From a virus, in the IMG/VR virus record IMGVR_UViG_3300000116_000087, positions 12,091-34,109 of that record: 22,019 bases of DNA. One strand, 5' to 3'. Position numbers and translations under genes: made by a program. Every line of letters begins with the position of its first letter. The stretch's first letter is position 1. Positions 10,598-21,181 of the stretch are shown here, piece by piece. A model generated the notes under the pieces. That model had not been told where the DNA came from, ran no database searches, and saw nothing but the letters and a program-made list of their open reading frames with translations.

Positions 10598-10963
10598 CTA
10601 AGCTATTTTTAATTCTATAGGATGGTTTATAAGGGAATAAATGTCAATAGTCTCTTGGTTTACCCATCTTTTAATTTCAACCAAACGTTCCTTACAAAAA
10701 AATTCTTGCTTTGTATACCACTGTTCCATATCATGACTGGCCTTGTTAGAATTACACCTTTGACAAGAAGGAAGTAAATTGCAACGACTGCTGGGACCAG
10801 ACTTATATCGTGGGATTATGTGGTCAAGAGAAGTTGCGGAGGCACCGCAGTAAGCACATTTGTTATCCCACGCATCATATATTGATTCTCTAAAACGTCT
10901 CTTCGCTCGTTTAGGTGTTAACTCAATGAGAAGGGCAAGTGGATCCTGTTCATTGTTAAACAT
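10598..10963 (-). CDS. HNH endonuclease, CxxC zinc type
   Basis: A 121-residue HNH nuclease (PF01844 type). The core runs from about residue 28 to 85: YDAWDNKCAYCGASATSLDH has the first Cys pair and the catalytic His, IIPRYKSGPSSRCNLLPSC holds the Asn region, and CQRCNSNK has the second Cys pair. The two CxxC pairs would bind a structural zinc; DH is the metal/catalytic pair. Free-standing HNH genes of this kind act in phages as homing endonucleases or assist terminase. No intron core was seen around it. ATG 10963 follows AAGAGGC at close spacing. It ends eight bases before the 953-residue gene and diverges from the gene at 11072. Confidence 0.85.
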   Translation of the reverse strand: MFNNEQDPLALLIELTPKRAKRRFRESIYDAWDNKCAYCGASATSLDHIIPRYKSGPSSRCNLLPSCQRCNSNKASHDMEQWYTKQEFFCKERLVEIKRWVNQETIDIYSLINHPIELKIA

Positions 10964-19069: not shown

Positions 19070-20221
19070 TCAAATAGTGCCGTCGTCTTGAACGAAGCTA
19101 AATGCGGTTGTGATGAAGTCCTTATTAAGAATTTCGAAACCAGCATACAGTTGCCAAATCAGAATAATGAAGCGGCTGAAGTCATCATTATTGTTGATGA
19201 GCACCTGGGCGTTAGGGCCACCGATGCCAACACCGATTGACTGAGGACCGAAGAAGTAGCCCTGAGCGACTTCCTTGGAAGCATAGCTGCTGCCGCCGTC
19301 AAAAGACGTATTGACATTCTTGTTGGGGAAGTTGGTGGACTCGTAGAACTTCACACCTTCAAACTGAACGCCAGTAGGCATAACAGGCTCACCAGCCAAG
19401 AAGTAGGCTTGGCCTGCCTGAGGACCCATGTAGAAGCTGGCGTTGTTAGGCATCATGGGGTTGCCCATGTACATGCCTTGACCAGGATTACCGGCGTAAC
19501 GAGCGATCTCACGGAAGTCATCGTCACGACGCAGGTGCATCATGAAGGTGGGATCGCAAATACAACGATACAGACCGTCAGCAAAGGTAGGTACGTTGCG
19601 CTTACGCATCTGCTTAACAACGTTCAGCAGGTCAGTACGCACGGAGAATTGCTGAACCTGAGCTTCATACTCAGCAGTGGTGTAAGAGATACGGTTTTGA
19701 CTGTCTTTCTCTTTAGCGCCTGCAAAATAGTAACCGCCGATGTCATCGGATGCAGCTCCATTAGCCTCAGCTTTGGCCATTTCGTCAATGAAGACGCGGT
19801 CGCGCCAACGACGATAGTCGTCCAGCAGAGTCAGAGAACCGATGCTCTGGTGGAACATGTTCAAGTTGCCGGTGTCGAGCAGCAGACGCTGAGCGGTAAC
19901 CAGAGTCTCACGGGCAATTTTAAAGGTTGAAGGCTGGGTGGGATCGCCAGGATCAGCAGGACCGGTGTACTCTTTCAGCACAACAAGCACCTTCTCCTTG
20001 GTGATGTTGCGGCTGTTAGCAGTACCGATGGTCTGATCGGAGACGCGCTCACGGCTCTCCTTGGTTCCAGGGGTTCCCCAGAACTTGTAGCGATCAAGTT
20101 GCACCGTCTGGCCGGGCTGGCGAGTGAAGTCATGGACGACCACAGGCTCAGCAGCCATCTCGCAAATGTAAGCGGGGTGAGGGCGATAAAGCTCCGCACC
20201 TAGCAGTTTTGGAAAATCGTT
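19070..20221 (-). CDS. Major capsid protein, exon 2 of a split gene
   Basis: Forms the icosahedral shell. The layout resembles N4-gp56-like capsid proteins: a Q-x-V-x-L-D-R-Y strand (PGQTVQLDRYKFWGTPGT), then GTANSRNITKEKVLVVLKEY, helix RRWRDRVFIDEMAKAEANG, and FIILIWQLYAGFEILNKDFI near the end. ATG 20158 has no Shine-Dalgarno, and the frame continues upstream as NDFPKLLGAELYR, then PHPAYICEMAAEP, back to the predicted 3' splice site at 20221/20222. Exon 2 codes for 383 residues; exon 1 (21045-21056) adds MFID, giving 387. The annotation as capsid protein is firm by size, composition and position; the family name is less so. Confidence 0.82.
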   Translation of the reverse strand, partial: NDFPKLLGAELYRPHPAYICEMAAEPVVVHDFTRQPGQTVQLDRYKFWGTPGTKESRERVSDQTIGTANSRNITKEKVLVVLKEYTGPADPGDPTQPSTFKIARETLVTAQRLLLDTGNLNMFHQSIGSLTLLDDYRRWRDRVFIDEMAKAEANGAASDDIGGYYFAGAKEKDSQNRISYTTAEYEAQVQQFSVRTDLLNVVKQMRKRNVPTFADGLYRCICDPTFMMHLRRDDDFREIARYAGNPGQGMYMGNPMMPNNASFYMGPQAGQAYFLAGEPVMPTGVQFEGVKFYESTNFPNKNVNTSFDGGSSYASKEVAQGYFFGPQSIGVGIGGPNAQVLINNNDDFSRFIILIWQLYAGFEILNKDFITTAFSFVQDDGTI

Positions 20222-21044
20222 CTCCTGGTCTCCAATTTCTTGAAGGGGTGGACCATCTCTTCATCCCAGAGGGATGCCGGACGCTGTATCTGGTATTACG
20301 TTACAAGATCGTGTAACACCCAGTGGCCTCTGCACGTTCCAATCACGGGCTTGATTGGCTTCGCTCAGGATTACCCTCGTCTTTACGTTAGGGCTTCCCT
20401 GAATTCATCCAGTTTTCACTTAACGATTGCTCGCTAAGGTGACAACGCTTGAGAAGTTCAGGTGAGGTAAAATTTGGAAACTTGTTCATAAACATCATGA
20501 ATCCAAAATTAGTCTCAGGATTTGGTAATCTCTACTTAACTGAATCCGGAAGAGCTTTTGAAAAACACTTGGACGATAATGACCAGGAGTATTTTGAAGA
20601 ACTTCCTATACAACACACTAGTAAGTATGATCGTGTCTCAATCCTTGTTGACGGTAAAAGAAAAAGATTTAATTTACACGTCTTAATGGCTGTTGCTTTC
20701 TTGGATTTAGATTTGCGTTCACATGGAACACACAACTTTTCTTTGCAAGTTAATCATATAGATAACAACAAAAGAAATAACAATCTAAATAATTTAGAGA
20801 TTGCTACTAAACAAGAAAACCTTATAAGAAGCTGGACTGAAAACAATCAAATTAACAATGGTTTTGCAAGTAAAGGAAAGGCGAAAACATCACTCAGGAA
20901 ATTTTCTAAAGAAGATGTGAAACAAATTAAATCTTTAAAAGAAGCAGGTCTTTCATACAGAAAGATTGCTGAAAAATTTAATTGTAATCACGGTGCTATT
21001 TACCAAATGCTGAAAGGTAATACCTACCAGGATCTGAACTAGCT
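20222..21044 (-). ncRNA. Group I (IA-like) self-splicing intron in the capsid gene
   Basis: On the minus strand the core can be drawn in order (plus coordinates). P1: exon TGAT plus AGC (21042-21048) with GTTGTCA (20440-20446), U-G at the splice site. P2: eight pairs capped by a GCAA tetraloop (20419-20438). P3: CTGGATG (20406-20412) with CGTCCGG (20277-20283). P4: TTCAGG (20398-20403) with CCTGAG (20364-20369). P5: CCCT/AGGG (20390-20393, 20374-20377). P6a: CCAATCA/TGATTGG (20339-20358). P7: GGCCA (20324-20328) with TGGTCC (20250-20255). P7.1 hairpin (20300-20317), P8 CATCCC/GGGATG (20262-20276), J8/7 AAGAGA. P10: exon-2 AACG with CGTT (20444-20447). The last intron base is G. Removal joins GAT to AAC in frame. 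Confidence 0.87.
20497..21042 (+). CDS. HNH homing endonuclease encoded antisense to its intron
   Basis: 181 residues from ATG 20497 (MNPKLVSGFGNLYLTESGRA); the frame opens at TTG 20449, but that would overlap the intron's guide sequence. Residues 84-110 carry the HNH pattern: LQVNHIDNNKRNNNLNNLEI with His87 and Asn99, then ATKQEN with Asn108. The N-terminal part (about 8-65) resembles a NUMOD4-like strand region. Residues about 136-178 hold a C-terminal HTH, FSKEDVKQIKSLKEAGLSYR then KIAEKFNCNHGAIYQMLKG, for DNA recognition. It is AT-rich, unlike the capsid exons, and its stop lies two bases from the intron's 5' end, so it fills the P1 loop on the opposite strand. It presumably cuts intronless capsid genes near the exon junction. 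Confidence 0.85.
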   Translation: MNPKLVSGFGNLYLTESGRAFEKHLDDNDQEYFEELPIQHTSKYDRVSILVDGKRKRFNLHVLMAVAFLDLDLRSHGTHNFSLQVNHIDNNKRNNNLNNLEIATKQENLIRSWTENNQINNGFASKGKAKTSLRKFSKEDVKQIKSLKEAGLSYRKIAEKFNCNHGAIYQMLKGNTYQDLN

Positions 21045-21056
21045 ATCAATGAACAC
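21045..21056 (-). CDS. Major capsid protein, exon 1 (MFID)
   Basis: GTG TTC ATT GAT, preceded at ten bases by GGAGG (21067-21071). Without splicing, the frame stops one codon later (AGC TAG). The final T pairs with G in P1, as group I introns require, and splicing joins GAT to AAC in phase. Only four codons, so this rests on the intron model rather than on protein similarity; protein N-terminal data would settle it. Confidence 0.72.
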
Positions 21057-21066
21057 TTTGGTTTAT

Positions 21067-21116
21067 CCTCCAGTGTCAGGTTTATCGGGTGAAAGATAAA
21101 GCCAAACGGCTTATCT
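21067..21116 (-). promoter_or_regulatory. Capsid leader: GGAGG site and upstream hairpin
   Basis: The leader carries a strong Shine-Dalgarno GGAGG (21067-21071) and, upstream, a hairpin AGATAAGCC - GTTT - GGCTTTATCT (21094-21116) with one bulged base. The hairpin may protect the 5' end of the capsid message. No convincing promoter boxes were seen between it and the terminator. Confidence 0.5.
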
Positions 21117-21143
21117 AACAAAATACTAGCATCAAGTAATTTT

Positions 21144-21180
21144 AAATACGGAGGGGGTAATAAGTACCCCCTCTGTATTT
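21144..21180. terminator. Strong hairpin terminator between scaffold and capsid genes
   Basis: A 16-pair stem (one G-T pair) with a G5/C5 centre and a 5-base loop (21144-21159 with 21165-21180), ending in ATTT on one side and AAAT on the other, so it can work in both directions. It lies right after the stop of the upstream minus-strand gene and would also end plus-strand transcripts of the homing-endonuclease gene. Confidence 0.75.
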
Positions 21181-21181
21181 A

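Follow-up and report, generated by a model that had tools for sequence, protein, structure and literature searches.

The window, meaning the whole stretch of 22,019 nucleotides analyzed here, spans positions 12091-34109 of a virus record 34,109 bases long (IMGVR_UViG_3300000116_000087) that IMG/VR classes as linear and that is likely a fragment. It derives from an uncultured cyanobacterial virus related to Synechococcus phage S-EIV1. A reading frame on the minus strand at 19070-20221 encodes a protein that matches PHROG 1357 (major head protein; E = 6.6e-14) and shares 84% protein identity with a frame of S-EIV1, a region annotated only with hypothetical proteins. Based on the PHROG match, the gene product is predicted to be a phage major head protein; searches with it against Pfam and NCBIfam gave no match. 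In the S-EIV1 GenBank record (L081, KJ410740 60784-62010), two hypothetical ORFs cover the capsid frame, one of them on the wrong strand, and the tblastn match across this frame is one uninterrupted piece. At the opposite end of the window, positions 1-2112 encode a long protein, perhaps a tail fibre, in which SG[A/T]TITGD-like repeats occur many times.

The whole open capsid frame comprises 396 codons, and its first ATG is at 20158. Ahead of this ATG are 21 codons of conserved protein sequence, and no ATG, GTG or TTG occurs in the 13 codons before the AAC at 20221. The original prediction, which was made from the sequence alone, had noted sensible protein sequence upstream of the only ATG with no start codon. 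It proposed that a group I intron separates this exon 2 (19070-20221, minus strand, beginning NDFPKLLGAEL) from a four-codon first exon behind GGAGG, so that joining GAT (21045) to AAC (20221) in frame would yield a product starting MFID-NDFPKLLGAEL. Our analysis bears out each of these elements. A Shine-Dalgarno sequence, GGAGG, can be read on the minus strand at 21067-21071, and it precedes exon 1, GTG TTC ATT GAT (MFID), at 21045-21056. The 823 nucleotides between the exons (20222-21044, minus strand), which end in G at 20222, are delimited as an intron by the Rfam model RF00028 and by alleles in which the site is empty.

We compared 80 close relatives from IMG/VR, most of which lack the intron; with further loci included, a rule classed 58 alleles as intronless, inspection by eye added two, and 55 distinct ones entered the tree described below. 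In approximately 55 distinct intronless relatives, GTG TTC ATT GAT (or a close variant) runs straight into AAY GAY TTY CC. The predicted junction is the sequence of the intronless allele, and removal of the intron restores the host reading frame with an exact match to these alleles. GGAGG is kept upstream of the GTG or ATG in nearly all of them. The spliced capsid product would have 387 residues, beginning MFIDNDFPKLLGAEL, and annotation that overlooks the intron would miss this N terminus, given that intronless relatives carry MFIDNDFPK in frame. A mechanical ORF caller chose the ATG at 20158, and if translation truly began there, the upstream conservation would be incidental and the intron would reside in the leader. 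We consider this very improbable, because intronless relatives do not start at MAAEPVVV but keep GGAGG-GTG-MFID/MFLD-NDFPK in one frame, and the 21 upstream codons are conserved as protein, with synonymous changes. The linear, likely fragmentary source record might also raise the concern that the region is an assembly chimera, but this explanation is scarcely credible, as many contigs, independent of one another and drawn from different datasets, show the same arrangement.

A group I core directly upstream of the capsid frame had been predicted, and the RF00028 covariance model accepts it: the P3-P9 ribozyme core at 20229-20461 (minus strand) scores 84.5 bits (gathering score 50; E = 1.6e-20). 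No second group I intron was found in the 34-kb record. Among 36 distinct introns, P1, P3, P4, P5, P7, P9 and P10 are paired in all 36 (100% of cells), and compensatory pairs are seen in P6a, P7, the P7.2 hairpin, P8 and P9. The guanosine-binding helix, P7, is formed by GGCCA (20324-20328, minus strand) and UGGUC (20251-20255, minus strand); it is paired in 180/180 cells, with a compensatory change in one pair. RNAalifold also predicts a distal extension of P1 between GUUCAG (21034-21039) and CUGAAC (20456-20461), both on the minus strand. This helix is paired in 36/36 introns and closes loop L1, the home of the HNH gene discussed below; in the L111 type, both of its strands are changed. Two extra hairpins between P7 and P3, at the place of P7.1/P7.2, are compatible with the "group IA-like" label assigned originally. 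A hand-picked P2 helix was dropped, since it is paired in 30% only. By its core, its P1, P10 and terminal G, and the restoration of the frame, the insertion is classified as a group I intron and is predicted to self-splice.

Comparison of alleles by itself leaves the junction ambiguous by one nucleotide, because an A starts both the intron and exon 2. Four features resolve the ambiguity: the U before the 5' splice site, the G at the end of the intron, and the P1 and P10 pairings. An internal guide sequence, CGUUGUCA (20440-20447, minus strand), pairs through its last four bases, GUCA, with the final UGAU of exon 1, placing a U.G pair at the splice site, and through its first four bases, CGUU, with the AACG of exon 2. 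P1 as a whole consists of UGAU-AGC (the hyphen marks the splice site) with GUUGUCA, and RNAalifold, unprompted, recovers both P1 and its distal helix. These re-derived pairings agree with the P1, P10 and terminal G invoked in the original prediction. Among 95 introns at this site, UGAU occurs with GUCA in 74 and CGAU with GUCG in 21, with zero exceptions. P10 varies in parallel, in that exon 2 AAU accompanies guide AUU in L094 and L133, and AAC accompanies GUU elsewhere. The covariation in P1 and P10 thus constitutes independent evidence for the splice sites given by the intronless alleles. In an initial model of P1, exon GUUCAUUGAU was paired with GUUUAUGAAC near 20490; we rejected this model because it sets C opposite A in four relatives.

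Beyond what was originally noted, loop L1 contains a gene for a putative HNH homing endonuclease of 181 amino acids (20497-21042, plus strand), which is antisense to the capsid gene and whose stop codon lies two bases from the 5' splice site. The protein matches Pfam HNH_3 above the cut-off, HTH_38 just under the cut-off and PHROG 59, and its HNH profile matches PDB 1u3e ("HNH homing endonuclease") over profile positions 1-125 (E = 2e-9). We take 1u3e to be I-HmuI, the intron endonuclease of Bacillus phage SPO1. This domain make-up, HNH followed by a C-terminal helix-turn-helix, suggests an I-HmuI-like HNH homing endonuclease. In all 98 copies that could be compared with a capsid gene, the HNH gene is antisense to it. 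Every one of 59 distinct HNH sequences scored is intact, with a median dN/dS of 0.108, and the gene is under purifying selection. Five introns of 275-277 nucleotides carry a short L1 hairpin in place of the HNH gene, which establishes that the gene sits in L1. The HNH-free versions (L194, L190, L104, L144 and L117) are scattered over the capsid tree and may have spread with the aid of an enzyme from another phage.

The sequence CTAG (intron positions 3-6) supplies a stop in the capsid frame on one strand and the HNH stop codon on the other. Read in the capsid frame, codon 2 of the intron is UAG in 50/50 HNH-bearing introns of the set, and four of the five HNH-free copies have CTGG in place of CTAG. 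The UAG may shield the intron from ribosomes. No relative of the HNH protein was found among 50,697 phage records, and bacterial genomes contain distant relatives only (26-47% identity). In the intronless loci examined, no such relative neighbors the capsid gene, and homing through an independent, free-standing copy of the enzyme was thus not seen. An HNH endonuclease gene of a different kind (PHROG 2214, Pfam HNH), possibly free-standing, lies elsewhere in the window, at 10598-10963.

Because it is encoded on the opposite strand inside L1, the HNH gene would need a transcript of its own; a scan for the sigma-70 consensus found no promoter for it. A strong hairpin separating the capsid gene from its upstream neighbor (21142-21181; -23.2 and -27.3 kcal/mol, z about -6) could be a transcript end on either strand. 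An HNH transcript running toward this hairpin would be complementary to three parts of the capsid pre-mRNA: exon 1, the ribosome site and the P1 strand. It might therefore have a regulatory role, holding back the splicing or translation of the capsid message for as long as the endonuclease is at work, although we regard this idea as unlikely.

To follow the intron across relatives, we used a tree of 126 capsid genes from which the intron site itself was left out. On the best tree, the intron is gained or lost 18 times, and at least 12 of these changes fall on supported branches; loci were picked by capsid similarity or intron pattern, and these and the following counts are not population frequencies. 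The insertion site reads TGAT-AACG in 50/50 intron-bearing rows versus 25/55 intronless ones, a bias expected if P1, P10 and the enzyme all need this sequence. A distinct 5' leader haplotype is present in 42/50 intron-bearing versus 9/55 intronless alleles, and the upstream haplotype goes with the intron in six to eight independent pairs, with almost none in the opposite direction. Such a linked haplotype is as expected of homing. In one pair with and without the intron (L040/L051), 64 bases upstream are identical and 1137/1150 match downstream. In another (L010/L008), only 62/89 of the last 100 upstream bases are alike, versus 919/978 over the whole kilobase, which is what one would expect of a conversion tract. 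The flank haplotype could also have arisen by ordinary recombination between lineages and not by repair after cleavage.

Alternatively, the insertion might be a group I intron that is defective in splicing or immobile, with the HNH gene as a relic and a distribution that reflects vertical descent with losses. Copies without the endonuclease gene do exist, so its loss or absence happens. Nonetheless, this explanation is improbable, since all 59 distinct HNH genes are intact at a dN/dS near 0.11, the seven helices from P1 to P10 listed above pair in 100% of cells, and presence changes on at least 12 supported branches. Moreover, because the second codon of the intron is an in-frame stop, failure to splice would scarcely be tolerable in a capsid gene.

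We therefore favor, with a probability of roughly 93%, the interpretation that this S-EIV1-like cyanophage capsid gene carries a mobile group I intron that is spliced GAT to AAC and spread by the antisense HNH enzyme. The sequences document the intron and its splice sites, the covariation of P1 and P10, intact HNH genes under purifying selection, gain and loss, and the flank haplotype; splicing in the cell, DNA cleavage, homing and separate HNH transcription are what we infer from them. In the proposed mechanism, the intron would fold within the mRNA, and the guide would hold exon 1 in P1 and then exon 2 in P10 while two transesterifications join GAT to AAC. The HNH enzyme would be made from its own transcript. 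During mixed infections, it would nick or cut intronless capsid alleles, and repair would copy the intron and flanking DNA into the cut allele.

Additional introns appear to interrupt the capsid gene in relatives of this virus. At L114:2861-7329, the capsid frame is in six pieces with five insertions between them. Three of these score above the Rfam threshold, and the other two, which contain long ORFs, give sub-threshold matches (E = 1.2e-7 and 1.2e-6). Every join has a U before the intron and a G at the intron end, and this capsid gene is apparently split by five group I introns. Three of the inserts carry endonuclease genes: HNH (antisense) in insert 1, LAGLIDADG_2 (sense) in insert 4 and LAGLIDADG_3 (antisense) in insert 5. 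In L093, L098, L164, L175 and L198, the capsid match is interrupted at one or two further places, and the last three of these loci have a second, sub-threshold core match. The scan by intron pattern also yielded L137, L168 and L091, which have several group I core matches per locus and no listed capsid match.

These observations correct the capsid protein start for a cyanophage lineage that is well represented in IMG/VR and largely unannotated, and they mark the capsid gene as an intron hot spot, with up to five introns per gene. They also provide naturally occurring alleles of three sorts (intron-bearing, intronless, and with an endonuclease-free intron), often in near-identical capsid genes, that are suited to measuring homing in the wild. 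Our search of mostly open-access literature found no description of the window's intron.

Several known systems resemble it in part. I-HmuI is the best solved relative of the HNH protein, but it belongs to another host gene and intron, and the gene here is antisense. In cyanophage Pf-WMP3, the HNH enzyme I-PfoP3I is encoded in the sense direction. Its group I intron, of 672 nucleotides, resides in the DNA polymerase gene (PMC3428280). Pf-WMP3 resembles our virus in being a cyanophage whose group I intron has an HNH homing endonuclease, and differs in that the intron here is in the capsid gene. Phage Twort reportedly has a gene with three group I introns. Three group I introns also interrupt the tape measure gene of ICP1 (PMC10448857). 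L114 resembles these phages in having multiple group I introns in one gene, but its capsid gene apparently has five, and among these are both HNH and LAGLIDADG enzymes and both orientations. In Jug phages of the gut, many essential genes are cut by group I introns, some of which splice in metatranscriptomes (PMC12363816); these are huge phages, and the genes named include those for the large terminase and nrdD. The closest parallel in plan is mycobacteriophage LittleE, whose major capsid gene contains a group I-type intron of 819 bp that has a homing endonuclease frame in its bottom strand and was proven by RT-PCR and protein sequencing to splice (PMC3706429). LittleE differs in its enzyme, which is described in the text as LAGLIDADG rather than HNH, in its phage and host, and in being a single isolate. 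There is therefore already a precedent for an antisense endonuclease gene within a phage capsid intron, which lowers the novelty of the window's intron; the support that the latter draws from natural alleles is unusually good.
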